Both the position numbers and the translations under genes were made by a program. From positions 124,001-188,000 of IMG/VR virus record IMGVR_UViG_3300042261_002390: DNA of 64,000 bases, one strand, 5' to 3'. The notes beneath the pieces were generated by a model. That model was given only the letters and a program-made list of their open reading frames with translations. It was not told where the DNA came from and ran no database searches. Position 1 is the first letter of the stretch; every line of letters begins with the position of its first letter. Below, piece by piece: positions 5,231-23,491 of the stretch. The stretch is from a virus.

Positions 5231-5257
5231 AGCGCAATAAGAATTGCGCTTTTTTTA
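5231..5257 (+). terminator. Rho-independent terminator
   Basis: Perfect inverted repeat AGCGCAAT / ATTGCGCT with a short loop, followed by a run of seven T. It closes the 4556 transcription unit just before the TnpB gene. Confidence 0.85.
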
Positions 5258-5288
5258 TCATTATTGTTTTTCTTTTCATAAATTTTTA

Positions 5289-5297
5289 GTATTTATG
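5289..5297 (+). promoter_or_regulatory. gTATTTATg late-promoter-like motif
   Basis: One base differs from the main motif at the last position. It lies 27 bases before the preferred TnpB start and within the part that resembles the leader of the gene at 6584. Confidence 0.4.
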
Positions 5298-5312
5298 TAT
5301 GTTATTACATAC
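5297..5312 (+). repeat. Perfect 6-bp inverted repeat at TnpB 5' end
   Basis: GTATGT and ACATAC face each other across a four-base loop (TATT). IS200/IS605-type elements carry a small hairpin near the left end, so this may mark the boundary of the mobile unit. It could also be coincidental, because this sequence overlaps a copy of the downstream gene's leader. Confidence 0.35.
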
Positions 5313-5315
5313 GAA
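5301..5315 (+). repeat. Left copy of 15-bp imperfect direct repeat flanking tnpB
   Basis: GTTATTACATACGAA here matches GTTATGACATACGAA at 6581-6595 with one mismatch. The right copy covers the first codons of the 6584 gene (MTYE); the left copy, in the extended TnpB frame, reads ITYE. Confidence 0.7.
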
Positions 5316-6545
5316 ATGTTGAAAGCAATTAAAATAAGATTATATTTAAATCAAGAACAAGTTAATTATGTGAATAATTTGCTTGGTACTTCTCGTTTTA
5401 TCTATAATAATTTACTTGCTTATAGGATTGAAAAATATGATAAAGATAAACGCAGTGTTTCTTTTGGAGAACTAGGTAAAAAACTAGTTGAATTAAAATC
5501 TGAACATGAATGGATAAAAAATAGTCATTCAAAAGTTTTGCAACAATCTATGATTAATTTAGATGTTGCATATAAATCGTTTTATAAAAACGGTAATGGT
5601 TTTCCTAAATTTAAATCAAAAAAAGACAATAAACAAAGTTGTAGATTTCCTTCTGATGCTATTGGTAGAATTAAAGGAAATAGAATAAATATCGTTAAAC
5701 AGCTTAAAGATATTCATTTTAAATGTAGCACTAAAGATGAAATATTTTTAAATTACAATCAAAAATTAATTAAATCTGCAACACTAGCAAAAACCAAATC
5801 TAATTGTTATTATTTGAGCATTTTAATTGAAGATAATAGAACAAAGCAATTACCAAAAACAGATAATATTATTGGTTTAGATTTGGGGATAAAGGATTTT
5901 ATTATAACTAGCGAAGGTGAAGTATTTGAGAATATTAAAATTAGACGAAATAATCAAAAGAAATTAGTTAGACTTAACAGACAATTATCAAAAAAAACTA
6001 ATGGCAGTAAGAACAAAAACAAAGCAAGAATTAGATTAGCAAAATTTCATGAGAAATTAAATAACAAAAAAGAAAATTACTTGCATTTAATTACTAATCG
6101 ATTACTTAATGAAAATCAAGTTATAGTTATTGAAGATTTAAATGTAAAAGGAATGTTAAAAAATCATTGTTTAGCAAAATCAATACAAGAGTTAAGTTTA
6201 AATAGGTTTAAGAATATTTTAGTTTATAAATGTCATTGGTATGGAAGGGATTTAGTCGAGATTGACAGATATTATCCTTCTTCAAAGTTATGTAATTATT
6301 GTGGCTATAAGAATGATGAACTGACATTGAAAGACAGAGAATGGGTTTGTCCAGAATGTAAAACTCATCATGATAGGGACATAAATGCTGCAATTAATAT
6401 AGGAAAAGAAGGAAAAAGAATTTTATTAATTAGAGAAAATAAAATAAATATAGGGTTGAGTTCACCCGAATTAACGCCTTTGGACAGTCGTGGTTACACA
6501 CTGGATGAATTAGGAAAAGAATGTAATTATAACGAATTTATGTGA
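5316..6545 (+). CDS. tnpB: TnpB, IS200/IS605-family RNA-guided nuclease
   Basis: A 409-residue protein with all catalytic features of TnpB, the RNA-guided DNA nuclease of IS200/IS605 elements and relative of Cas12. The RuvC triad is visible: Asp189 in GLDLGIKDF, Glu273 in VIEDLNVKGM and Asp355 in HHDRDINAA. A four-Cys zinc finger (CNYCGYK ... CPECK) lies between the last two. The start MLKAIKIRLYLNQEQ was chosen because family members begin this way; the frame runs further upstream to ATG 5295 (MYVITYE), but that part copies the next gene's leader. No TnpA gene is nearby, so the element cannot move unaided. The guide RNA, if present, should come from the 3' end of the gene and the following bases. 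Confidence 0.92.
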   Translation: MLKAIKIRLYLNQEQVNYVNNLLGTSRFIYNNLLAYRIEKYDKDKRSVSFGELGKKLVELKSEHEWIKNSHSKVLQQSMINLDVAYKSFYKNGNGFPKFKSKKDNKQSCRFPSDAIGRIKGNRINIVKQLKDIHFKCSTKDEIFLNYNQKLIKSATLAKTKSNCYYLSILIEDNRTKQLPKTDNIIGLDLGIKDFIITSEGEVFENIKIRRNNQKKLVRLNRQLSKKTNGSKNKNKARIRLAKFHEKLNNKKENYLHLITNRLLNENQVIVIEDLNVKGMLKNHCLAKSIQELSLNRFKNILVYKCHWYGRDLVEIDRYYPSSKLCNYCGYKNDELTLKDREWVCPECKTHHDRDINAAINIGKEGKRILLIRENKINIGLSSPELTPLDSRGYTLDELGKECNYNEFM

Positions 6546-6580: not shown

Positions 6581-6595
6581 GTTATGACATACGAA
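6581..6595 (+). repeat. Right copy of 15-bp imperfect direct repeat flanking tnpB
   Basis: One mismatch to 5301-5315, 1280 bases away. This copy spans the start codon of the giant gene. Confidence 0.7.
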
Positions 6596-9500
6596 GAATT
6601 CAGAGAAAAATTTTTACCAGAATTTAGTAAAATCAGGACATTTGCGGGAAAAATTAGATATGCAGACCAATACTTAACTAAAATAGGTGCTGGAACTGGT
6701 CGTGCTGTTTATGATATTGACGGCAGTAAGGTATTAAAAGTTGCTAAAAATCCCAAAGGCGTTGCTCAAAATGAAGTTGAAGCACCACTTGGTGATGATT
6801 ATTATATTAAAGATGTTGTTACTGAAGTATTTGATAGTGCCGATGATGATAGCTGGATAATTGCAGAAAAAGCAAAAAAGGTTAATGAAAGTAGAATTAA
6901 ACAATTAACTGGTATACCAAGTTTGGTTAGATTATATACATTTTTAAAATATGTTTATGAACAAAGTGTAAAACCAAATCGAAATAACCCAACTAGATTA
7001 AATCAAAATGAAATAGATTTTTTTTATGAAAATGAATTTGCTTCTGGTTTGGCTGATTTAATTGGTAGTTATGAACATTCGTATGGTGATATGGGTAGAC
7101 CAAGCAGTTATGGCGAAGTTTTGCGTAATGGTCAACCAACAATAGTTTTAACTGATTATGGATTGAACGATGAGGTATATTCACAACACTATGATAGAAG
7201 TAGAAAAAAAGGGTATCGTATGTATGAATTATATCAGTTTGCTGATGGTAATGATGACATGCTTTCAGATATTGGTAATACCGGGGAAGTTCGTCATGTT
7301 ATGTGGGCACAAGTACCATATAGCGTAGGTGATGGTGATGGCGTTATTAATGAAGAATTTGTACATTTTGTATCGAATCGTGACTATTATCCTGAAAAAC
7401 CTTTGGAAACAATGCCATATTTGGTTGAAAATTTCCACGAATGTATTAATAATTTGAAGGAAGCATTAAATGTTGCAAAGGATAAGAAACATTTTTATAG
7501 TAATTTATTGAAACTCCAAGAATATTTAACTAATCAAGGTTGGTTTAATAGAGAACCACTTGGTGAGTTATACGAGGTTGATAATAAAAAAATTAATGAA
7601 AGTTTAGATATTAAATTAGCTAATGAGGTTGCATTGGAAGTTGCACAGATTAAAGGTTTTAATGAGCCTAAATACTTAGGTTCTGGCAATTTTGGTGTTG
7701 CTTATGATATTGGTGATGGTAAGGTGTTAAAAATTACTACAGACCATACGGAAGCTAATGAAAATATAGGTTTATTAGGTAAACCATTAAAATATATTGC
7801 AAAACCATTTAATGTATATAAAATCGAATCAGAAAGTGGTAGAGTTGATGACGATACTTATGCAATAGTACTTGAAAAACTTCAAACTGATGTTGAAAAA
7901 TTTACTAAATTAAGACAGCGATTAGATTATGCGTTTGGTAAAATATTGGATTTAAGTCTTGCTGATGTTTTGGCTGATTATGTTGCTGATTATATTAATC
8001 CCGGGGATATGAGAAGAATTGAAGCTTATATGAAGAAGAACCCAATAGATGCTGAATTTTTCTATAGTTTGATTCATATTGCTGATGAAGCTAAATCATA
8101 TGGTGTTGATAGTATTGATTACATTAACCCGAAAAATCTCGGCTATATGCCTAGTGGAGCGATTGGTTTTTTTGATGTTGGATTTGGTAATGCATTCGTA
8201 CAACCCGACATACCAAAAATGAGTATTGGCGAAGATGGCGCAGCTAAATTTTCACAGACCGATTCTATTGGTCGTGATGATTTTCCAACATATGACCAAG
8301 ATAACGGCGATGACCCTATTGAGAACAATCTTGACGCTAATTCGGCAAATTATGTTGACGAAAGAGAAATGAAGTTCATGCCAAAAAGTAAGGGTGTTGA
8401 AGTTAAGAAGAAATGTAGATTAGGCGGGTTAGGTAATACTAGTGCAGCATGTAATCAAGGAGATATTAGTAATTTGAATATCAGTAGATTAGATGAAATT
8501 AATATCAGACATAATGAAACCGTTTGGGGTTGGGTATCACCAAATAACGAATTTATACGTGTTCCTAAACTAAATCATAGGGGATATATCATGAGAGTAT
8601 ATAAGGACTATGAATATAGCTGGGATTATGATAGAGTGTTTGATAAAGCAATTGAAGACGGATGGGTTAGAGTAATTTATGAATATTTCTCAGATAAATT
8701 TCGTGGCGAATTATCATTAAACGGATACGATAAAGATAGGGTGATTTCCGTATTTAAAACAATGTTTTATGATTTAGTTAAATATGGTGGTAATAGCATT
8801 TATTTGGAATATGAAAATCCTAAAGGCTATGATAGTTTTTATGCTGGCAATACTGAAGGTAGAAAAAAATTAAATGATTTTATTGGTATTACTGAAACAA
8901 TTAATGAAGAAATCCATGCTGATGATGCTAAGGAATATAACGATGCTATGCAAGCTATGCTTGATGGTAAAAAGGATGTATCAACAATTGCATTTAAAAT
9001 CAGACCTGCTTTGCGTGATGTTGTAACTCAAAATGATTTTGGTTTAATCCCGGTACAACAGGAAAGAAGTAATGTCGATATGAATATCGTTTATCGTAAA
9101 ACTTCAAGGGGTGAAGCTAATGCAAAACGATTGTATCAAATTATGATGAAACATGGTGGTTATGCTGCAGACCAAACACCTGATGAAGCACGTGAGATTG
9201 GTATGTTATTGGATTATAGTAATGATTCGATTAATCAATATATTGAAAATAAGTATGTTAATAAAATAGATGAAGGTATTTTTGACGATTTTGAAACTAG
9301 ATTCAGAGCACATAAAATAAGTAATGTTGAAAATGTGATATACCGTGAGTCTGATGGATATTTTATAATAAAAAATCCGAAATCATTACAACATATTACT
9401 CATAACGTTCGTGGTGTTATTACATCTTCAGGTGATTTATATGTGGAAAATTATGTGAAAAAAGTGCATAGTACTATTTTAATGATACTGAGTGATTTAG

Positions 9501-11950
9501 GTATCATTCAATATGTTGAGGGATGGACACGAGTGCTGCCGAATGAATTTATTACAGTTACACGGTATAAAAACACTAATAATTTTTTTGCTGGTGAATC
9601 AAATATAATGTTAAGCCAAGATGATAAAAGAATTTCAGGAAATTGGAATGGTGTAGCTGATTATCAAGAATCTTTAAGACTGTTTCAAAGTTATATGAAT
9701 AAGGCTAAAGATAAGAATCCTGACATAAATTTTTATCCTGAAAAAATAAACGATTATGATGATTCATACAATGGATTGAAGGGCTTATATTTTGAAGGTG
9801 TCGGTGATACTTATGTTGAAAAGAAATTTGGCATTGAACCTGAATTTTCTGATTTTGAAGATAAATATAATTCAGCACAAAATTATAAAGATAGGGACAA
9901 GGTGGTATATAACGATGGTAAAGGTCTTGTCATAATAAAAAATCCTAAGAATTTAGATAATATCGGATATGGCGTTAGAGGTATTATTGACAAATATGGT
10001 AATTTATATGTTGAACAAAAATCGAAAGTAATACATGATAAGATTTTGAAGATATTAACTGAATTGGGATTAATTAAATATAATATAAATTGGCGATATG
10101 AGATTCCTACTGAGTTTATTACTGTGCATAGAAATTATCACAAGAATCAATTTTTACTTGGTGATTCTAATGACATGATGATTCCTGATGAATATAGGAG
10201 TGAATATCAAAAGGATATTTTGCCTAGTTTTTCTGAAGCAGAACCAGTATTTAATACATTTATTGAAAAAGCAAAACAAGTTAATCCTGATATTGATTTC
10301 AGTACAGACCTTATTGATGGCTATGTAAAATTCAATACTAATGAGGGTGTTGGTGACAAATATGCTGAGAAGAAATTTGGTGTTGAGCCAGAATTTTCTG
10401 ATTTTGAAAAAAGATATGCATCAAAACAGAATGTTGAACAAGAAGAGGTGGTATACCAAGATAATGAATTGATTTTAATTAAAAACCCTAAATCATTGGA
10501 ACATATCGGCTCAAATGTAAGAGGTGTTGTTGATAAAGAAGGTAATTTGTATGTTGAACAAGAAGTTGGAAATATACATGAAGATATTTTAAAAATACTA
10601 AATAGTTTAAACTTAATTAGATATCAAAATAATTGGGAAAGGAAAATTCCTTCAAATTATATAACAGTTCAAAGATATTATAATACTGATTTATTTTATT
10701 TGGGCGAATCAAATGAAACAATGCTCCCTGATGAAGATAGATTTGAAGACCATAATGCAGCTAGATATGTAGATGCAAAACCAGTGTTTCAACAGTTCAT
10801 TCATCGTGCAAAACAAAAGAATCCTAAAATTAAGTTTATTAATGATATGTTGACTGTTTATCAGGATTATAATGAATCAGTGGAAAAATTTGATAATAAT
10901 TTTGGTTTGTATTCAGAAAATACTATCTTTGCTGATGAAAATTTAGATGAAACTTTAGGTGAGTTGGATAAATACTACGTGAAAACTGGTATATATGACG
11001 ACGAAGACCGTGATGTGATTTTATCGATAACGAATGGTGATAATTGGACAAAGCTTATTGCTGACATGTATTATTATCTTGGAGATAGGTATAATAAGCA
11101 AATGGTTGAACCGAGAAAATTAAATGATAATGAAATCACGTATCTTAAAAATACACATGAATTATTGAAGGCGTATGATAAAAATGTATTACCAATTCAT
11201 GACTTATTTGCTCGTGAACATAATGCACATGCTCTTGAAAAAATGAATGACCTTAATACTAGGAATGTTATACTGAAGAAACTTAAACAGATTCCAAGTG
11301 TATATCTTCGTAATTTAAGAGCTGATTTGAGAAAGGAAAGAGACCATTATGAATTTGATAGTTTGTTGAAAAACATTAATTCAATTCTTAATTCAATGAG
11401 AGTTCTGAATAATGTTAATGCTGAAAGAGCTAATTTAATTTTAAAGAAAGTTTTTTCAAATGAGAACGATACTTTTGAAAAGATTAAAGAAAGATTTGAT
11501 AATATATTTATACCATATTTGTCACAAGATGAACCGATTGAGGAAATTTTAGATAATATTAAGTATTGGAAAGATGAAGTGGAATTGTTATATAATAAGA
11601 ACGACGTTGTTGCTGTTAAAATAATGAGTGCTGAAGCAATGACAGCATTTGGTTGTAGTTCACAATGGTGCTTTGCAAGAGATACTGGTTGGTGGGATAA
11701 TTATGCTGAATATGGGTTTGCAACAATTGTATATAACTTTAATTTAGACCCTAGTGACCCTAAAAGAATGGTCGTGGTTTTAGATAATGGTAATGTATAT
11801 AACATGTATAATGAGTACATGGATGAAGGTATTGAATATTTGGAAGAAATTGGTGTATATGATTATATGCCGACATCGGATGAATATGAACACGAGTTTG
11901 ATAGCGAAGTGAATGAAAATATTGAAGAGGCTAGAAAATTAATAATTTGA
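6584..11950 (+). CDS. Giant mosaic protein: two kinase-like domains, three tandem repeats
   Basis: A 1788-residue protein with several modules. Residues 30-200 look like a protein-kinase fold: glycine loop IGAGTGRAVY (35-43), VLKV with Lys52 and a DYG motif at Asp191. Residues 360-540 hold a second one: LGSGNFGVAY, Lys383 in VLKI and DVG at Asp531. Residues 610-628 carry CRLGGLGNTSAACNQGD, which I have the impression of having seen in other phage proteins. Residues 840-890 (AKRLYQIMMKHGGYAAD) form a small helical module. Three repeats of about 185 residues begin near 901, 1088 and 1271, each with FxDFE, IKNPKxL, NVRGV-like, GNLYVE and ITVxR. Near residue 1690, AFGCSSQWCFARDTGWW resembles the TKWC-type domain of other large phages. 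No HRD catalytic loop is obvious, so activity is uncertain. Size and late promoter suggest an internal virion protein delivered to the host. Confidence 0.75.
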   Translation: MTYEEFREKFLPEFSKIRTFAGKIRYADQYLTKIGAGTGRAVYDIDGSKVLKVAKNPKGVAQNEVEAPLGDDYYIKDVVTEVFDSADDDSWIIAEKAKKVNESRIKQLTGIPSLVRLYTFLKYVYEQSVKPNRNNPTRLNQNEIDFFYENEFASGLADLIGSYEHSYGDMGRPSSYGEVLRNGQPTIVLTDYGLNDEVYSQHYDRSRKKGYRMYELYQFADGNDDMLSDIGNTGEVRHVMWAQVPYSVGDGDGVINEEFVHFVSNRDYYPEKPLETMPYLVENFHECINNLKEALNVAKDKKHFYSNLLKLQEYLTNQGWFNREPLGELYEVDNKKINESLDIKLANEVALEVAQIKGFNEPKYLGSGNFGVAYDIGDGKVLKITTDHTEANENIGLLGKPLKYIAKPFNVYKIESESGRVDDDTYAIVLEKLQTDVEKFTKLRQRLDYAFGKILDLSLADVLADYVADYINPGDMRRIEAYMKKNPIDAEFFYSLIHIADEAKSYGVDSIDYINPKNLGYMPSGAIGFFDVGFGNAFVQPDIPKMSIGEDGAAKFSQTDSIGRDDFPTYDQDNGDDPIENNLDANSANYVDEREMKFMPKSKGVEVKKKCRLGGLGNTSAACNQGDISNLNISRLDEINIRHNETVWGWVSPNNEFIRVPKLNHRGYIMRVYKDYEYSWDYDRVFDKAIEDGWVRVIYEYFSDKFRGELSLNGYDKDRVISVFKTMFYDLVKYGGNSIYLEYENPKGYDSFYAGNTEGRKKLNDFIGITETINEEIHADDAKEYNDAMQAMLDGKKDVSTIAFKIRPALRDVVTQNDFGLIPVQQERSNVDMNIVYRKTSRGEANAKRLYQIMMKHGGYAADQTPDEAREIGMLLDYSNDSINQYIENKYVNKIDEGIFDDFETRFRAHKISNVENVIYRESDGYFIIKNPKSLQHITHNVRGVITSSGDLYVENYVKKVHSTILMILSDLGIIQYVEGWTRVLPNEFITVTRYKNTNNFFAGESNIMLSQDDKRISGNWNGVADYQESLRLFQSYMNKAKDKNPDINFYPEKINDYDDSYNGLKGLYFEGVGDTYVEKKFGIEPEFSDFEDKYNSAQNYKDRDKVVYNDGKGLVIIKNPKNLDNIGYGVRGIIDKYGNLYVEQKSKVIHDKILKILTELGLIKYNINWRYEIPTEFITVHRNYHKNQFLLGDSNDMMIPDEYRSEYQKDILPSFSEAEPVFNTFIEKAKQVNPDIDFSTDLIDGYVKFNTNEGVGDKYAEKKFGVEPEFSDFEKRYASKQNVEQEEVVYQDNELILIKNPKSLEHIGSNVRGVVDKEGNLYVEQEVGNIHEDILKILNSLNLIRYQNNWERKIPSNYITVQRYYNTDLFYLGESNETMLPDEDRFEDHNAARYVDAKPVFQQFIHRAKQKNPKIKFINDMLTVYQDYNESVEKFDNNFGLYSENTIFADENLDETLGELDKYYVKTGIYDDEDRDVILSITNGDNWTKLIADMYYYLGDRYNKQMVEPRKLNDNEITYLKNTHELLKAYDKNVLPIHDLFAREHNAHALEKMNDLNTRNVILKKLKQIPSVYLRNLRADLRKERDHYEFDSLLKNINSILNSMRVLNNVNAERANLILKKVFSNENDTFEKIKERFDNIFIPYLSQDEPIEEILDNIKYWKDEVELLYNKNDVVAVKIMSAEAMTAFGCSSQWCFARDTGWWDNYAEYGFATIVYNFNLDPSDPKRMVVVLDNGNVYNMYNEYMDEGIEYLEEIGVYDYMPTSDEYEHEFDSEVNENIEEARKLII

Positions 11951-12101
11951 TAAAATTCAAAAAAAGAATATCAATAGAGATTTGAGAAAGTTTAAATACT
12001 TGACATCTATGGGATATACTATATTGTATCTATGGGAATATGATTTAAAACACAATTTAAATGAATGTAAAAATAAATTAAATAGACTGTTATATGAATA
12101 A
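11946..12101 (+). pseudogene. C-terminal remnant of a homing endonuclease
   Basis: Between the giant gene and the CCA enzyme, the frame starting near 11946 encodes about 51 residues with no start codon at its head: INRDLRKFKYLTSMGYTILY, then LWEYD, ending in KLNRLLYE and a TAA at 12099. The pattern (RD..K...L...GY.ilyLWE.D) is the C-terminal part of Vsr/restriction-fold endonucleases found with phage homing genes. The catalytic region is absent. It overlaps the ends of both neighbours, so it looks like the scar of an endonuclease gene that was mostly lost. Confidence 0.55.
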
Positions 12102-13719
12102 GATAAAAAATTTTATAGCTGATTTAAAAACCAAACCGTTTATCAAATCAATGATAAATGATTTGAATGCTGAAGTATATGTTGTTGGTGGTGCAACTAG
12201 AGACCTTATTCTCAATAAAAATAACAAGGATATTGATTTATTAATTAGAAAAATACCAATCGATGTGTTAATATCTCATTTAAAAAATTATGGTAAATTA
12301 GATATTGTGGGTAAATCATTTGGAGTTATTAAGTTTATTGATTCAGATGGCGTTGATTATGATATAGCATTGCCTCGCCGAGAAAAACCAACAGGTGAGG
12401 GTGGACATAAAGACTTTGAAATTCAGAGCGATGAAAATTTACCGATTGAAGTGGATTTGAGTAGAAGGGACGCTAAACTTAATGCAATGGCAATTGATTT
12501 AAACAACGAAAAATTTGTTGACCCTTTGGGTGGTTTGGACGATATTCAAAATAAACAAATATCTGCTGCAAATCCTAATGCATTTTCAGATGACCCACTT
12601 CGTATGTTGAGAATGATTGGTTTTGCAAGTCGATTTGGATTTACGATTGAACCCAGAACAATGGAAATGATTCAAAAAAATGCTGAAAGTATTAAGAGAA
12701 TACCTGCTGAAAGAATTATCGAAGAATTCAAGAAGATTATCGAAAAGGGTAATCCTAGAATTGGTGTTGAACTTTTAGTATCTACCGGGTTATTTAAACA
12801 AATATTTGGTAATGAAATCAAGCAATCACAAATAGATAAGCGTGATTTTGAAAGCGTTAAATCTATGGCTGAGTTTTTATTTTTGATGATGTATGATGTT
12901 GTTCAAAATCCGTCACAATTTTATTTAAGTAAATTTAGTACGGAAGATGCTTTAAGGGATAAAAACTATAAAGAAATAAAAGCATTGGAGTTGGCATTTG
13001 CAAATACCAATAATAATCCAGTGGCTACAAGGTCAGTTGCACATAACATGTATGTAATGTCACCTGTTTCTTTGGAGAGTTCAATTCTTCCTTCTGAGAT
13101 TAAAACTGCAGCACAGGATTTGCTTTCAGGTAGATATCCTAAAACAGTTAATGAATTGGCTGTTAATGGCGGTGATTTAATGCAGTTAGGATTAAAAGGT
13201 AAAGAAGTTGGTGATATGCAAAAGTCATTATTGCTTAAAGTTTATGGCGATAAAGTTCGTAACGATAAGAATAGTTTGCTTGCTGTTGCTAAAGGTGAAG
13301 AACCAAACAACTTAAGTGAGGTTGATGCTAATATTGATAAGAATGTTCTTTATAGTGCAGTTGTGCTTGACGATGAGTCACGTAGCAAATTATTGAAAGT
13401 GGTTCAACCTATGATACCTGATGGTTGGGAAGTTATAGCGCATCACATGACAATCAAAATGGGTGCAATAAACCCCGAAAATCGGGGTGATTTGAATACC
13501 GAAGTAACGCTTGATGTTATTGATTACGCTATCGATGATATGGCATTTGCTGTTGGTGTAAGTGGTTATCCATCCAACAATAAGAAGCCTCATATTACTA
13601 TTGCAATTAATAGACTTGAAGGTGCTAAACCAGTAATGTCTAATAATTTAACTGATTGGAAACCATTAGGTTTTCCATTAAAACTGAAAGGAATTGTTAC
13701 TGAAATTAAACGAAATTAA
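12094..13719 (+). CDS. CCA-adding tRNA nucleotidyltransferase fused to 2H phosphoesterase
   Basis: A 541-residue, two-part enzyme. Residues 25-225 are a class II nucleotidyltransferase that adds CCA to tRNA 3' ends: VVGGATRD (30-37), the metal pair DID (Asp46, Asp48), SRRDAKLNAMAID and DDPLRMLRMIGFASRFGF are in the family order. A helical region follows. Residues 425-541 carry two H-x-T motifs, His451-Met-Thr453 (AHHMTIKMG) and His500-Ile-Thr502 (PHITIAIN), the signature of 2H phosphoesterases, which open 2',3'-cyclic phosphates or remove 2'-phosphates. Bacterial CCA enzymes often carry an HD domain with related activity, so the 2H domain may stand in for it. Together they would repair tRNAs cut at or near the 3' end. 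A HAD phosphatase lies downstream. Confidence 0.85.
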   Translation: MNKIKNFIADLKTKPFIKSMINDLNAEVYVVGGATRDLILNKNNKDIDLLIRKIPIDVLISHLKNYGKLDIVGKSFGVIKFIDSDGVDYDIALPRREKPTGEGGHKDFEIQSDENLPIEVDLSRRDAKLNAMAIDLNNEKFVDPLGGLDDIQNKQISAANPNAFSDDPLRMLRMIGFASRFGFTIEPRTMEMIQKNAESIKRIPAERIIEEFKKIIEKGNPRIGVELLVSTGLFKQIFGNEIKQSQIDKRDFESVKSMAEFLFLMMYDVVQNPSQFYLSKFSTEDALRDKNYKEIKALELAFANTNNNPVATRSVAHNMYVMSPVSLESSILPSEIKTAAQDLLSGRYPKTVNELAVNGGDLMQLGLKGKEVGDMQKSLLLKVYGDKVRNDKNSLLAVAKGEEPNNLSEVDANIDKNVLYSAVVLDDESRSKLLKVVQPMIPDGWEVIAHHMTIKMGAINPENRGDLNTEVTLDVIDYAIDDMAFAVGVSGYPSNNKKPHITIAINRLEGAKPVMSNNLTDWKPLGFPLKLKGIVTEIKRN

Positions 13720-13755
13720 GTCTAAATAAGTAGTTGAATTCATTAAAGATATTTT

Positions 13756-14394
13756 ATGATTAGCAGAAATATATATTTTGAAGAAAACAAGTTTAAAAGA
13801 TTTGGTGATTATATTGAGTATCATTTACTTAATGAGATAGCTAAGAAATATGGTATAACTAACGAAAATGGCGTTGAAGTAAACGTGTTTAATGTAAATC
13901 GAAAGGGGAAAAAATTTAAGCCATTCGATATTTTTGTTAGGAACATAAAAAAAAGAATTGAAGTAAAAGGTGATTACATGACAGTTCGATTGGGTAATAT
14001 TATTGTTGAAACTTATGGACACGATGGATTTTCAGGGATATCTACCACAAAAGCAGATTATTGGGTTTTTGTTACTGGCTTTTATAAAATTTGGATAACA
14101 CCAAATGAATTAAAAAAATACATTACATTAAGAAATTTAAGCGTCGGAGATGTTAGAGGCAATGGGGATAATTATACAAAAAAAGCATATAAAGTAAGAC
14201 ATGACGATTTTATTGACTATATTTTAAATCTTAACGATAAAAATATTGGACTAGTTGTTCCGATAGATAGAAATAGTCCGTTATATTGGCATAAATGTAT
14301 TCCTTTTAATTATAGTCTTAGAAAATATCATCAAGAGGCTAATATTTTTGAAGAACGTAAGGATGAATTATTTAAAATAAAAAGAAGTAGATGA
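13756..14394 (+). CDS. PD-(D/E)XK-type nuclease
   Basis: A 212-residue protein with the core of a PD-(D/E)XK nuclease. PFDIFVRN supplies the Asp, and KRIEVKGDYM about 12 residues later supplies E-x-K; a following beta hairpin (GNIIVETYG) and GISTTKADYWVFV fit the family fold. Such proteins cut DNA and in phages serve as recombination, restriction-like or homing nucleases. It is flanked by a convergent LAGLIDADG gene, with 28 bases between the stop codons, so homing activity is possible. No late motif precedes it; it follows the CCA gene after 36 bases and may be cotranscribed. Confidence 0.65.
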   Translation: MISRNIYFEENKFKRFGDYIEYHLLNEIAKKYGITNENGVEVNVFNVNRKGKKFKPFDIFVRNIKKRIEVKGDYMTVRLGNIIVETYGHDGFSGISTTKADYWVFVTGFYKIWITPNELKKYITLRNLSVGDVRGNGDNYTKKAYKVRHDDFIDYILNLNDKNIGLVVPIDRNSPLYWHKCIPFNYSLRKYHQEANIFEERKDELFKIKRSR

Positions 14395-14422
14395 AAAAAA
14401 GATTAGTAGCATTTGAATGATA

Positions 14423-15436
14423 TTAAATATATTTAAAAAAATATCCTTTAGTGTGATTTCTTTCACCACTAATAACTCTTCTAATACATTTGTCTTTAAT
14501 TTTCATAATATCACATAATTCATGTATATTATTGAAAGTGCGAATGTATTGTTTTGTATTATAGTCAAACATTTCTATTTTACGTAGCTTAGATAATCTA
14601 TTATATGTGCCTTGTCGATATTCTCTTAATGTTTGAAATATTTCATATTTTCTGCTTAGTCTTAATGTTTCAGAATCATAATACATTTCATTTTTTATTA
14701 TATTGAGGTCGTGATATGAATAATAAAAAATTTTTGAGATGTAATTATTACTTGACTGATATACTGTATTAGTTAATTTAGTGTTATTCGATATGTGATA
14801 TCTTAAAAAATCATGTTTAATTTGTTTTAATAATGCCTCCGACCCGATTATCTGAAATCTTAGTCTTCCTTTTTTTTGATTTTTTTCGTTAGTAATTGAC
14901 CCGTCACCATCAAAAACACCTCTAATAAAATGCCAAAAATATTCATTAGGTATATTTGGCATTTCACAGGTGAACGATTTGTTGGGATATATGCCCAATT
15001 TATTTAAATCATCAACAATTTCTTTAGATGCTATTTGTAATGAATATCTAGTATATGTTTTATTTGTTCTTTTATCAAAAATATCGTATTTGGCTAATTT
15101 ATGTTCAGACTTGAGTTCTCGTTTAAATATTTCAACAAGCTCACTGTCTTTAGATGTAAAAGTTAATTTAAATTTATTAACATATCCGTCAGATATGATT
15201 AATCCTAGTATGTAAGCTTTATTTTTATTGTTGATTTCTTTAAAAAAATTTATATCAATGCTGTGTTTTCTATTATTGCCGTCGTGAGATTTATTATCTA
15301 ACGTATATCCATATTTTTTCAACCGATTTCCGATTGTTGATGGTGATACGTCACCAATTAAGTTAGCTATTTTATTTAATGAGTATTTATCTTTAAAATA
15401 ATAATTAAATATTTGTTCTATGTTTATGTTTTTCAT
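14423..15436 (-). CDS. LAGLIDADG-type homing endonuclease
   Basis: A 337-residue protein on the opposite strand to its neighbours. It has two LAGLIDADG helices, each ending in the metal-binding acid: AYILGLIISDGY (Asp83) and FIRGVFDGDGS (about residues 167-177). An N-terminal helix-turn-helix (residues 1-45, LNKIANLIGDVSPSTIGNRLKKY) and a C-terminal NUMOD-like segment (MFDYNTKQYIRTFNNIHELCD...) add DNA contacts. Two-motif proteins act as monomers on asymmetric sites. It is free-standing, between the nuclease and HAD genes, and has its own late-type promoter on the minus strand. It is intact and probably active. Confidence 0.9.
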   Translation of the reverse strand: MKNINIEQIFNYYFKDKYSLNKIANLIGDVSPSTIGNRLKKYGYTLDNKSHDGNNRKHSIDINFFKEINNKNKAYILGLIISDGYVNKFKLTFTSKDSELVEIFKRELKSEHKLAKYDIFDKRTNKTYTRYSLQIASKEIVDDLNKLGIYPNKSFTCEMPNIPNEYFWHFIRGVFDGDGSITNEKNQKKGRLRFQIIGSEALLKQIKHDFLRYHISNNTKLTNTVYQSSNNYISKIFYYSYHDLNIIKNEMYYDSETLRLSRKYEIFQTLREYRQGTYNRLSKLRKIEMFDYNTKQYIRTFNNIHELCDIMKIKDKCIRRVISGERNHTKGYFFKYI

Positions 15437-15453
15437 AAATTTGCATTTTTAAA

Positions 15454-15462
15454 AATAAATAC
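15454..15462 (-). promoter_or_regulatory. gTATTTATt late-promoter motif (minus strand)
   Basis: On the minus strand it reads GTATTTATT, with its first base 26 bases before the ATG of the LAGLIDADG gene, the same spacing as in the plus-strand late genes. Confidence 0.5.
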
Positions 15463-15492
15463 TTTGAGATTTAAAATTATTGGGTTTTGATT

Positions 15493-16098
15493 ATGGAAAA
15501 AAATAAAAATACTCGAAAACGTCTAATAGCCATCGATTTTGACCAATGTTTGGTCAACACCCCTGAAGAAATTCAAGGTAAGAAAACTTGGGAAGAAGTT
15601 AAAGGTGTTCCTTATCCGCATAATGGATGGTGGGGTAGGAAAGAAAGCTTAGATTTGGATGTTTTTGATATAAAACCATATCCTAACGTACTGTCTGTTT
15701 TAAGAAAAGAAAGCAGTAGAAATGATACGTATGTTATTGTTTTAACAGCAAGAATGGAAAAATTGCGTCCATATGTGCAAGCAGTTCTTGATGCAAATAA
15801 CATTAGGGTTGATAAATTGGATATGAAAAGTGATAATAAAACAAAGGGTGAAAGAATATTGGCATATTTAGCTGAGATGCCTGAAATAAAAGAAATTTCA
15901 GTTTTCGATGACCAAGAAAAACATCTTGATTCGTATCGTGAAATTATAGATAAACTACCTAAAGGTGTTAAATTGAATATTTTTAAAACTGATGAGGGTG
16001 TGATTAATTTAGTTGAATCAAAAAATAAACTCAATCATATTATTTCTGATGAAATTGAAAATTTTTTTGATTGTATTTATATTAAAAAAATTCTATGA
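15493..16098 (+). CDS. HAD phosphatase, RNA-repair (SAK) type
   Basis: A 201-residue HAD-superfamily phosphatase. Motif I is AIDFDQCLVNTP with the nucleophile Asp in DFDQ, motif II is VIVLTAR and motif IV is ISVFDDQEKHLDSY. The GWWGRKESLD segment between motifs I and II matches the HAD family found in Swiss Army Knife RNA-repair proteins. Such domains are thought to remove 3' or 2' phosphates from RNA ends. It lies two genes downstream of the CCA/2H fusion, which supports a shared RNA-repair role. The ATG at 15493 is preferred to the TTG two codons before. Its stop overlaps the next start by four bases (ATGA). Confidence 0.75.
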   Translation: MEKNKNTRKRLIAIDFDQCLVNTPEEIQGKKTWEEVKGVPYPHNGWWGRKESLDLDVFDIKPYPNVLSVLRKESSRNDTYVIVLTARMEKLRPYVQAVLDANNIRVDKLDMKSDNKTKGERILAYLAEMPEIKEISVFDDQEKHLDSYREIIDKLPKGVKLNIFKTDEGVINLVESKNKLNHIISDEIENFFDCIYIKKIL

Positions 16099-21643: not shown

Positions 21644-23491
21644 ATGGCAGCAGAAACAACAAATATTATTAAGTACGGAAGTAGAACATTTGGTGAAATA
21701 CGTACTGATTTAATTTCATTTATCAGACAAACATATCCAACAATATTAAGTGATTTTACCGATTCTAGTATTGGGTCGATGTTGATTGACTTAAATGCTG
21801 GTGTTGGTAATAATCTTAGCGTTAATACTGATAGAGCATTTCAGGAAACACAACTAGAATATGCCCAACAAAGAGCATCAATATTAAATATTGCAAAAAA
21901 TATGGGATTCAATATCCCGGCAAAAAGACCATCAGTTACTGTTGTTGATTTTACTGTACTGATTCCTGTATTGGGTGATAAACCAGATGCATCATATTAT
22001 CCTGTTTTAGATGCAGGAGCACAAATTATCGGCGGTGGTAAAGTATTTGAAACACAAAATGTTATTGATTGGAGTTCTCCATATAGTAGCTTAGGTGACC
22101 CAAATCGCTCAATAATTCCAAATTTGGATTCGAATGGTGTGATTGTGAGCTATAATGTTACCAAGAGAGAAGTTGTTGTTAATGGCACGTCTAGTATATA
22201 TAAGACAATAATTACCAGTAATAATGTTGTTCCCTTTTTCAGCATAACATTACCTGACCCGGATGTTATTGAGATTGAAAGTATAATTCTTCTTGAAGGC
22301 ACGAATTATAACACTAACCCAACTGCTAGTGAATTTAATAATTCCGCTAACAGATATTATGAGGTGGATTACCTAGCGCAACAGAAAGTTTTCGTTGAAA
22401 ATACACAATCGTCACAATTAAATGTTCAAGCAAATGGCGTAAAGGCAGCTCAATGGATTGACGTTACAAAAAAATTCATAAAAGAATTTACTTCGAATGG
22501 TTATTGTAAAGTCACATTTGGTTCGGGGGATTCTGATATTGATGCATTTAAAAGTGGGTTTTTAAAAGAAGGTGTTAGTAATAAATATTTTCTCGAAAAT
22601 TTCTTAAATAATACAGCACTTGGTGAAAAATTGAAAGCAGGTTATACTTTATTTGTTAAATACCGTACTGGTGGTGGTTCAAGTTCAAATATTGGAGCAA
22701 GAGCATTAACTCAATTAGGTAATTATACACTTACTTCAAATGGTTCTCGTCAAGATTATCGACAAAATGTTGTAAGAAGTTTAAAAGTAAATAACCCAAT
22801 CCCGGCAATTGGTGGTAATGATGGTTTAAGTGTAGAACAAATAAGACAATTGATTAAATATAATTTTTCATCACAAATGAGAGATGTTACGTTAACTGAT
22901 TATTTGTTGCAAATATATAAAATGCCGGGTAAGTTTGGTTCGCCATTTAGAGCAAATGCATTAAAATTAGACAACAAGGTAATTATACCAATTTTAGATA
23001 TTGGTGCTGATGGAAAATTGTCAAATACTAGCAATAGTTTATTAAAAGAAAATATTGCAGAATATCTTAGTCAGTATAGAATGATTAATGACTATATTGA
23101 AATCAGAGATGGTAAAATATTTAATCTCGCATTTGATATTGATGTTTATGTTGAAAACATTGCCGATAATCAAATTGCTAATAGTATTATTACAATTGTA
23201 AGAAACTATTTGGATATCAATAATTATGAAATGAATGAGGACATATTTCTCGGAAGATTACAGAAAGAAATTTTAGCAGCAAACGGTGTTATTAACGTTA
23301 TTGAAATTAAGGTATATAATAAACAAGGCGGTAATTACTCCAACAATGTTGTATCACAGGATATTTTAAATACCTCAACAGGTCAAATTAAAATTATTAA
23401 TAACACAATTTATTCGACAGAAGATTCGATGTTTGAAATCAAATATCCTGAAAAGGATATTAGAGTTTTCTTACGTAAAAAGACTGTATAA
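21644..23491 (+). CDS. Baseplate wedge protein, gp6/baseplate-J-like
   Basis: A 615-residue homologue of T4 gp6 and phage Mu/P2 baseplate J, which makes the ring of wedges around the tail hub. The N-terminus (FGEIRTDLISFIRQTYPTILSDFTDSSIGSMLIDL) and the early helix RAFQETQLEYAQQRASILNIAKNMGF follow the family pattern, and GNDGLSVEQIRQLIKYNFSSQMR leads into the C-terminal alpha-beta domain. Its partner gp25 is directly upstream. The stop overlaps the next start by one base. Confidence 0.88.
   Translation: MAAETTNIIKYGSRTFGEIRTDLISFIRQTYPTILSDFTDSSIGSMLIDLNAGVGNNLSVNTDRAFQETQLEYAQQRASILNIAKNMGFNIPAKRPSVTVVDFTVLIPVLGDKPDASYYPVLDAGAQIIGGGKVFETQNVIDWSSPYSSLGDPNRSIIPNLDSNGVIVSYNVTKREVVVNGTSSIYKTIITSNNVVPFFSITLPDPDVIEIESIILLEGTNYNTNPTASEFNNSANRYYEVDYLAQQKVFVENTQSSQLNVQANGVKAAQWIDVTKKFIKEFTSNGYCKVTFGSGDSDIDAFKSGFLKEGVSNKYFLENFLNNTALGEKLKAGYTLFVKYRTGGGSSSNIGARALTQLGNYTLTSNGSRQDYRQNVVRSLKVNNPIPAIGGNDGLSVEQIRQLIKYNFSSQMRDVTLTDYLLQIYKMPGKFGSPFRANALKLDNKVIIPILDIGADGKLSNTSNSLLKENIAEYLSQYRMINDYIEIRDGKIFNLAFDIDVYVENIADNQIANSIITIVRNYLDINNYEMNEDIFLGRLQKEILAANGVINVIEIKVYNKQGGNYSNNVVSQDILNTSTGQIKIINNTIYSTEDSMFEIKYPEKDIRVFLRKKTV

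Follow-up and report, generated by a model that had tools for sequence, protein, structure and literature searches.

Metal-independent RNases leave 2',3'-cyclic phosphates on the RNAs they cut, and 2H enzymes open these to a 2'-phosphate (PMC9503650). In CCA-adding enzymes of the E. coli type an HD domain removes 2',3'-cyclic phosphates from tRNA 3' ends (PMC10673834, citing Yakunin 2004). A study of jumbo-phage RNA repair (PMC7824862) lists CCA enzymes, 2H proteins, SAK-type HAD phosphatases, Rnl1/Rnl2 ligases and polynucleotide kinase (PNK) and predicts that they repair host-attacked tRNAs, HAD phosphatases clearing phosphates and CCA enzymes restoring tails. Here we analyze a stretch of 64,000 nucleotides (the window), positions 124001-188000 of the IMG/VR virus record IMGVR_UViG_3300042261_002390, whose full length is 246,149 bases. 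One of its proteins joins a CCA tRNA nucleotidyltransferase to a 2H phosphoesterase domain (CCA-2H), and a HAD phosphatase is encoded nearby. The feature is real and larger than a preliminary description of this DNA had indicated; it is probably a phage module for RNA-end repair, conserved among relatives, and a variant of known phage RNA repair.

The window protein resembles the E. coli-type multifunctional enzyme, since in both a CCA domain is followed by a C-terminal domain for 2',3'-cyclic phosphate (predicted here), so that the tRNA end would first be cleaned and the CCA then added back. It differs in carrying 2H rather than HD, in leaving the phosphatase to a separate HAD protein and in being phage-encoded. 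With the cyclic phosphodiesterase (CPD) domain of fungal Trl1 (PF08302), its nearest Pfam match, it shares the 2H fold and a presumed role in RNA-end healing; however, the window 2H domain is joined to a CCA nucleotidyltransferase and not to a ligase and a kinase, and its score lies below the family cut-off. The jumbo-phage study deals with the same families, but its accessible part lists CCA, 2H and SAK-HAD separately, the last mostly as standalone proteins, and describes neither CCA-2H or 2H-CCA-HAD fusions nor a conserved trio. The literature that was searched, which did not extend to the main 2016 RNA-repair review, does not describe a CCA-2H fusion either, in line with the statement of the preliminary description that it was not known from phage systems. 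The whole fusion was found in none of the cultured phage records searched.

The gene at 12094-13719 (+ strand) encodes 541 amino acids, and Pfam, PHROG, motif and model evidence identifies the product as a class-II CCA tRNA nucleotidyltransferase that ends in a 2H domain. The head domain covers residues 28-156 (12175-12561, + strand; PF01743, 1.3e-20) and includes GGATRD (32-37), DID (46-48) and RRDxxxNA (124-131). The nucleotide-recognition motif DDPLR (166-170), in which D replaces the E of EDxxR, aligns with the EDALR motif of a CCA enzyme of known structure. It stands immediately ahead of the RNA-binding region, residues 182-238 (12637-12807, + strand; PF12627, 6.4e-20). The class-II motif set of GGATRD, DID, RRDAKLNA and DDPLR is complete. 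Catalytic residues were compared in alignments of 85 CCA, 83 2H and 87 HAD sequences, and G32, G33, R36, D37, D46, D48, R124, R125, D126, N130, D167 and R170 are invariant in all 85 of the CCA set. The best NCBIfam model for residues 20-400 is NF009814 (CCA, 6.3e-43), PcnB reaching 4e-29, and all of these scores are under the curated cut-offs. When the full-length protein was modelled with AlphaFold (predicted local distance difference test score, pLDDT, 84.5), the model matched CCA enzymes first in the PDB (5hc9, 1miv) and CNPase at lower rank; solved CCA enzymes were also matched by the CCA half in a PDB comparison. A Pfam scan of the window proteins, in which HD matches were sought at E<=1, detected no HD domain in the 541-residue protein, and 2H occupies that position.

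The 2H domain covers residues 417-541 (13342-13716, + strand) and was assigned by phrog_36523, conserved motifs and fold. Its active-site motifs, H451-M-T453 and H500-I-T502, are the sole HxT/HxS sites in the protein. When the C-terminal 139 residues were shuffled 20,000 times, only 93 of the shuffled sequences had two HxT motifs; homology is the stronger support for 2H identity. The C-terminal 125 residues match phrog_36523 (1e-9), and 38 related viral loci were found for the domain. As a query against viral contigs the full protein gave no match, while the 2H domain alone and alignments succeeded. Both motifs are retained in nearly all of 82 contigs, with H49 in 82/83 aligned sequences, T51 in 83/83, H98 in 82/83 and T100 in 81/83 (domain numbering). 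Modelled alone (pLDDT 88.5), the domain matched mouse CNPase, goldfish RICH, E. coli LigT, a Burkholderia phage phosphodiesterase and a fungal RNA kinase chain in foldseek with probability 1.00, and CNPase dominates the 50 best PDB matches. A sequence search of the PDB with the 2H profile returned chance matches only. On these models the fold assignment is sound, but the scores behind the subfamily assignment are modest. At the sequence level, tRNA ligase phosphodiesterase is linked most clearly through a homologue in one related contig (L039; contigs bear L numbers throughout), which clears the PF08302 cut-off with 35.2 against 23.

The nearest 2H relatives in phage records are those of Atu_ph07, Phosso, DAC19 and crAss-like phages, near whose 2H genes no CCA or HAD was detected. 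In the cultured jumbo phages Atu_ph07 and Phosso (L220, L222) the standalone 2H gene lies near genes for a Clp ATPase and a translation initiation factor. When bacterial and archaeal genomes were scanned with an alignment of the 2H domain, no relative was returned; the scan used a single 7-residue pattern, so absence from cells is not established. Neither the CCA-2H nor the HAD protein was matched to a defence system by PADLOC.

The HAD_SAK_1 phosphatase gene (15487-16098, + strand; PF10307, phrog_415) encodes 203 amino acids and starts at TTG 15487 or, equally, at ATG 15493 two codons on. Its PF10307 score is 30.6 bits against a cut-off of 25.6, and its match to phrog_415 (T4 PNK type, 3.3e-9) reflects a likeness to the phosphatase half of T4 polynucleotide kinase. 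The protein has DxD at 17/19, T87, K120 and D141/D142, and D17, D19, K120 and D142 are present in all 87 aligned sequences. The motifs named in the preliminary description were all recovered: GGATRD and DID with the PF01743, PF12627 and solved-structure matches, the two H-x-T motifs at 451-453 and 500-502 (HMT and HIT), and the GWWG...ESL pattern of the HAD protein (47-50 and 53-55). The HAD gene had been placed two genes on; it is actually the third open reading frame (ORF) downstream, because an opposite-strand LAGLIDADG gene (14423-15436) intervenes. The reading frames of the module genes are intact, and the near-invariance of catalytic residues in CCA, 2H and HAD is the pattern that would be expected of active enzymes and not of relics.

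The HAD proteins of L002 (2145-3077) and L008 (6875-7804) are extended at the C-terminus by a further domain, whose YHGT...FTS pattern looks ADP-ribosyltransferase-like by eye. RNA 2'-phosphotransferase (KptA) was considered for this tail in the L002 protein and rejected, Pfam giving no match there.

The association of the three domains was examined in 111 unique IMG/VR contigs pooled from separate HAD and CCA-domain scans, each taking the 80 loci most similar to the window without selection on 2H motifs. CCA, 2H and HAD occur within about 11 kb of each other in 71 of these contigs, as separate genes in 38, with CCA and 2H fused in 30 and as a single polypeptide in three. This 2H-CCA-HAD polypeptide is found in L012 (=L122), where it has 708 amino acids, L118 and L119. 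Where all three genes occupy a single locus they are on one strand in 68 of 70 contigs. Other arrangements include the operons 2H|HAD|CCA (L039) and 2H|CCA (L036-L038), and a protein of 1042 amino acids (L047, 3823-6951) that combines a topoisomerase IB core, an HExxH-like motif, 2H and HAD_SAK_1. The 2H domain is fused to an RNA-ligase-like domain with a KVDG motif beside a CCA gene in L015 and to a P-loop kinase-like domain in L042, the ligase and kinase matches both being weak. A tree built from 85 CCA domains requires 13 changes between fusion and separation, at least seven of them forced by well-supported branches, and the all-in-one protein sits in a distant CCA clade next to a three-gene version. 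The pairing is not due to chance, and a functional linkage is strongly supported, above all by the repeated rearrangement with the trio kept. The suggestion of the preliminary description that CCA, 2H and HAD work together gains accordingly from their recurrence in many arrangements, the single protein included, and from the RNA ligases elsewhere in the genome.

From the domains, the intact catalytic residues, the recurrent association and the fusions we infer the activities, the order of steps, the tRNA substrate and a role against host defence. A nuclease would leave a tRNA with a lost or damaged tail bearing a 2',3'-cyclic phosphate. The 2H domain would open the ring, and as with related 2H enzymes a 2'-phosphate would be the most likely product; the HAD protein would strip the phosphate to yield a 3'-OH, and the CCA domain could then re-add C, C and A. 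Healed 3'-OH ends might also supply phage RNA ligases. The likeliest use would be to keep tRNAs working under damage by host defences or stress. The order of ring opening, phosphate removal and CCA addition fits the known chemistry of the families. We assign a probability of roughly two in three to the reading that CCA-2H and the nearby HAD form a phage module for healing RNA 3' ends and rebuilding CCA. The RNA ligases and the PNK-like kinase encoded in the record, and the weakly matched fusions of 2H to ligase-like and kinase-like domains, speak for this reading too.

Several observations weigh against this reading. The window 2H domain alone reaches only 19.3 bits (9e-4) against PF08302, whose Pfam cut-off is 23, and its foldseek E-values are just about 1e-3. 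As CPD-type 2H enzymes leave a 2'-phosphate, the HAD protein would have to act on a 2'-phosphate. No ligase was found beside the module in the window, nor in the conserved neighbourhood of relatives. The count of 71 trio contigs overstates their independence, because 64 of them share the synteny of one lineage (a glycosyltransferase and other neighbours) and the scans took the 80 loci nearest to the window; in favour of the reading, on the other hand, seven trio contigs lack any synteny marker of the window lineage. Finally, a partner was not seen nearby for CCA in 14 contigs and for HAD in 11, several of these at contig ends; many contigs missing one member of the trio stop near the locus.

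A putative role of the module in counter-defence gains weight from the report that Cas12a3 cleaves CCA tails and blocks phage, viral resistance being termed 'yet unknown' (PMC12851939, Nature 2026). More specifically, the module may serve the phage specifically to counter host defence by repairing the CCA tail of tRNA, as a convergent remake of CCA-HD from 2H and HAD parts that would undo immunity attacking the 3' tail (Cas12a3-like effectors, acceptor-end RNases), in some lineages maybe inside a giant polyvalent protein and possibly delivered at infection. We put this forward tentatively, as a proposal less likely than not. The RuvC site of Cas12a3 should leave a 3'-OH, and because of this 2H and HAD would serve other damage, such as that by metal-independent RNases or spontaneous breakage.

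The substrate could also be other than a tRNA tail. Phages counter anticodon-loop cuts with decoy tRNAs and ligases, and 2H and HAD might heal RNA ends for phage RNA ligases in anticodon-nuclease repair while CCA works in parallel on other molecules, an explanation that overlaps with the CCA-rebuilding module and differs from it in the main substrate. The record encodes an Rnl2-like RNA ligase, an HNH-RNA ligase, a DNA-ligase-like protein and a PNK-like P-loop kinase, the ligases lying at 201-226 kb of the record; RtcB was not found in it. An Rnl-type ligase match is present in 14 of 18 trio or 2H-family records searched, a few possibly being DNA ligases, and the L015 fusion joins 2H to an RNA-ligase-like domain. 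However, the usual covalent partner of 2H is the CCA enzyme and not a ligase, and the conserved neighbourhood has none, so that we regard ligase feeding as the main function as rather unlikely. Maturation of the phage's own CCA-less tRNAs, with 2H and HAD tidying the processing ends and no defence role, stays a rival because the two predicted tRNAs of the record appear to lack an encoded CCA; CCA enzymes are moreover widespread in phages (464 records matched). Yet two tRNAs, one of them poor, are few for such an elaborate conserved kit, and bacterial hosts already possess a CCA enzyme. Usual tRNA 3' processing yields 3'-OH ends and needs neither 2H nor a phosphatase, which also counts against own-tRNA maturation, and we judge it improbable.

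The remaining explanation, that 2H is an anti-signalling enzyme degrading cyclic or 2'-5' oligonucleotides, of the type directed at CRISPR or the cyclic oligonucleotide-based antiphage signalling system (CBASS), and that its fusion to CCA reflects modular shuffling in a polyvalent protein, has to be considered together with the giant proteins of relatives. The 2H-domain search revealed giant proteins of 1262-1913 amino acids with CCA and 2H at their C-terminus, 46 of 95 CCA ORFs exceed 1000 amino acids, and some CCA giant proteins also hold ART-PolyVal and GNAT domains. In this they resemble the polyvalent phage proteins, which are thought to be injected (PMC5512222, whose section 20 proposed an oligonucleotide-degrading or RNase role for their 2H domains). 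However, that study never saw its 2H domains with RNA ligases, 'CCA-adding' has 0 occurrences in it, and the window CCA-2H is its own gene. The 2H family here is a different one, which accompanies CCA and HAD and, in L015, an RNA-ligase-like domain. A second, distinct 2H domain (2'-5' RNA ligase/Acb1-like, anti-CBASS), which scores to Acb1, is C-terminal to CCA in the giant proteins of L009, L010, L034, L158 and L184, and relatives of it were detected in 21 contigs; the older proposal is a better fit to this second domain. The module 2H, in contrast, belongs to another subfamily, with tRNA_lig_CPD as best Pfam match and 2',3'-cyclic phosphodiesterases as best folds, and keeps the company of CCA and HAD outside giant proteins too. 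An anti-signalling function of the module 2H is improbable in our estimate. Members of the window's subclade have CCA-2H as a free gene, and in the window the parts are separate genes. The idea that the 541-residue ORF is a piece of a broken polyprotein was rejected, because the close relatives L033, L088, L092 and L114 carry a similar free-standing CCA-2H gene. Delivery or packaging of the giant polyvalent protein is possible in some lineages, the baseplate wedge gene downstream of the module in the window being circumstantial evidence.

An enzyme set predicted to clean and rebuild the CCA tail, and kept together across dozens of large phages, offers a concrete candidate that can readily be tested. 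If the CCA-rebuilding reading is true, one repair logic of CCA nucleotidyltransferase, cyclic-phosphate opener and phosphatase would have been assembled convergently from unrelated folds, and some 2H domains of giant phage proteins would gain a function beyond the earlier RNase or oligoadenylate proposals.

Short N-terminal sequences are shared by neighbouring genes in some of the related contigs. The tag M-[ST]-W-x-D-I-L-K opens 10 of 16 consecutive ORFs in L039 (4694-6855) and 13 of 16 in L041, and also occurs in L036 and L037. In L039 it is present on the 2H, HAD and CCA genes, and it was seen in none of nine unrelated loci nor in L038; the tag may serve in targeting or packaging. In L016/L017, L018 and L022, standalone 2H proteins share other short N-terminal stretches with their neighbours (for example MITFKEYY, MIKLKxxL), which we take to resemble loosely the T4 capsid targeting sequence.

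Directly upstream of CCA-2H in the window, a separate gene (6584-11950, + strand; phrog_4301, 1.2e-10) encodes a protein of 1788 amino acids that is homologous to the N-terminal part of the relatives' giant proteins ending in CCA and 2H. It has repeated segments and, by eye, a kinase-like GxGxxxxVYD...VLK pattern, without a significant Pfam match. Between CCA-2H and HAD lies a gene for a protein of 212 amino acids (13756-14394, + strand; phrog_13596, 4.7e-8) with a possible PD-(D/E)xK-like motif (PFDIFV...IEVK) seen by eye; it takes the same position in several relatives. The LAGLIDADG homing endonuclease gene (14423-15436, - strand; PF14528, 1.3e-8; phrog_4645, 3e-43) is inserted between this gene and the HAD gene and is outside the CCA-2H/HAD module. 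It is missing at that site in L003, L011 and L033, and in relatives such as L003 the flanking genes overlap or adjoin. A transposase gene (5244-6545; phrog_506, 4.8e-118) is inserted just upstream of the gene for the 1788-residue protein and is absent there in L003 and other relatives, and downstream of the module a baseplate wedge gene is located at 21644-23491.

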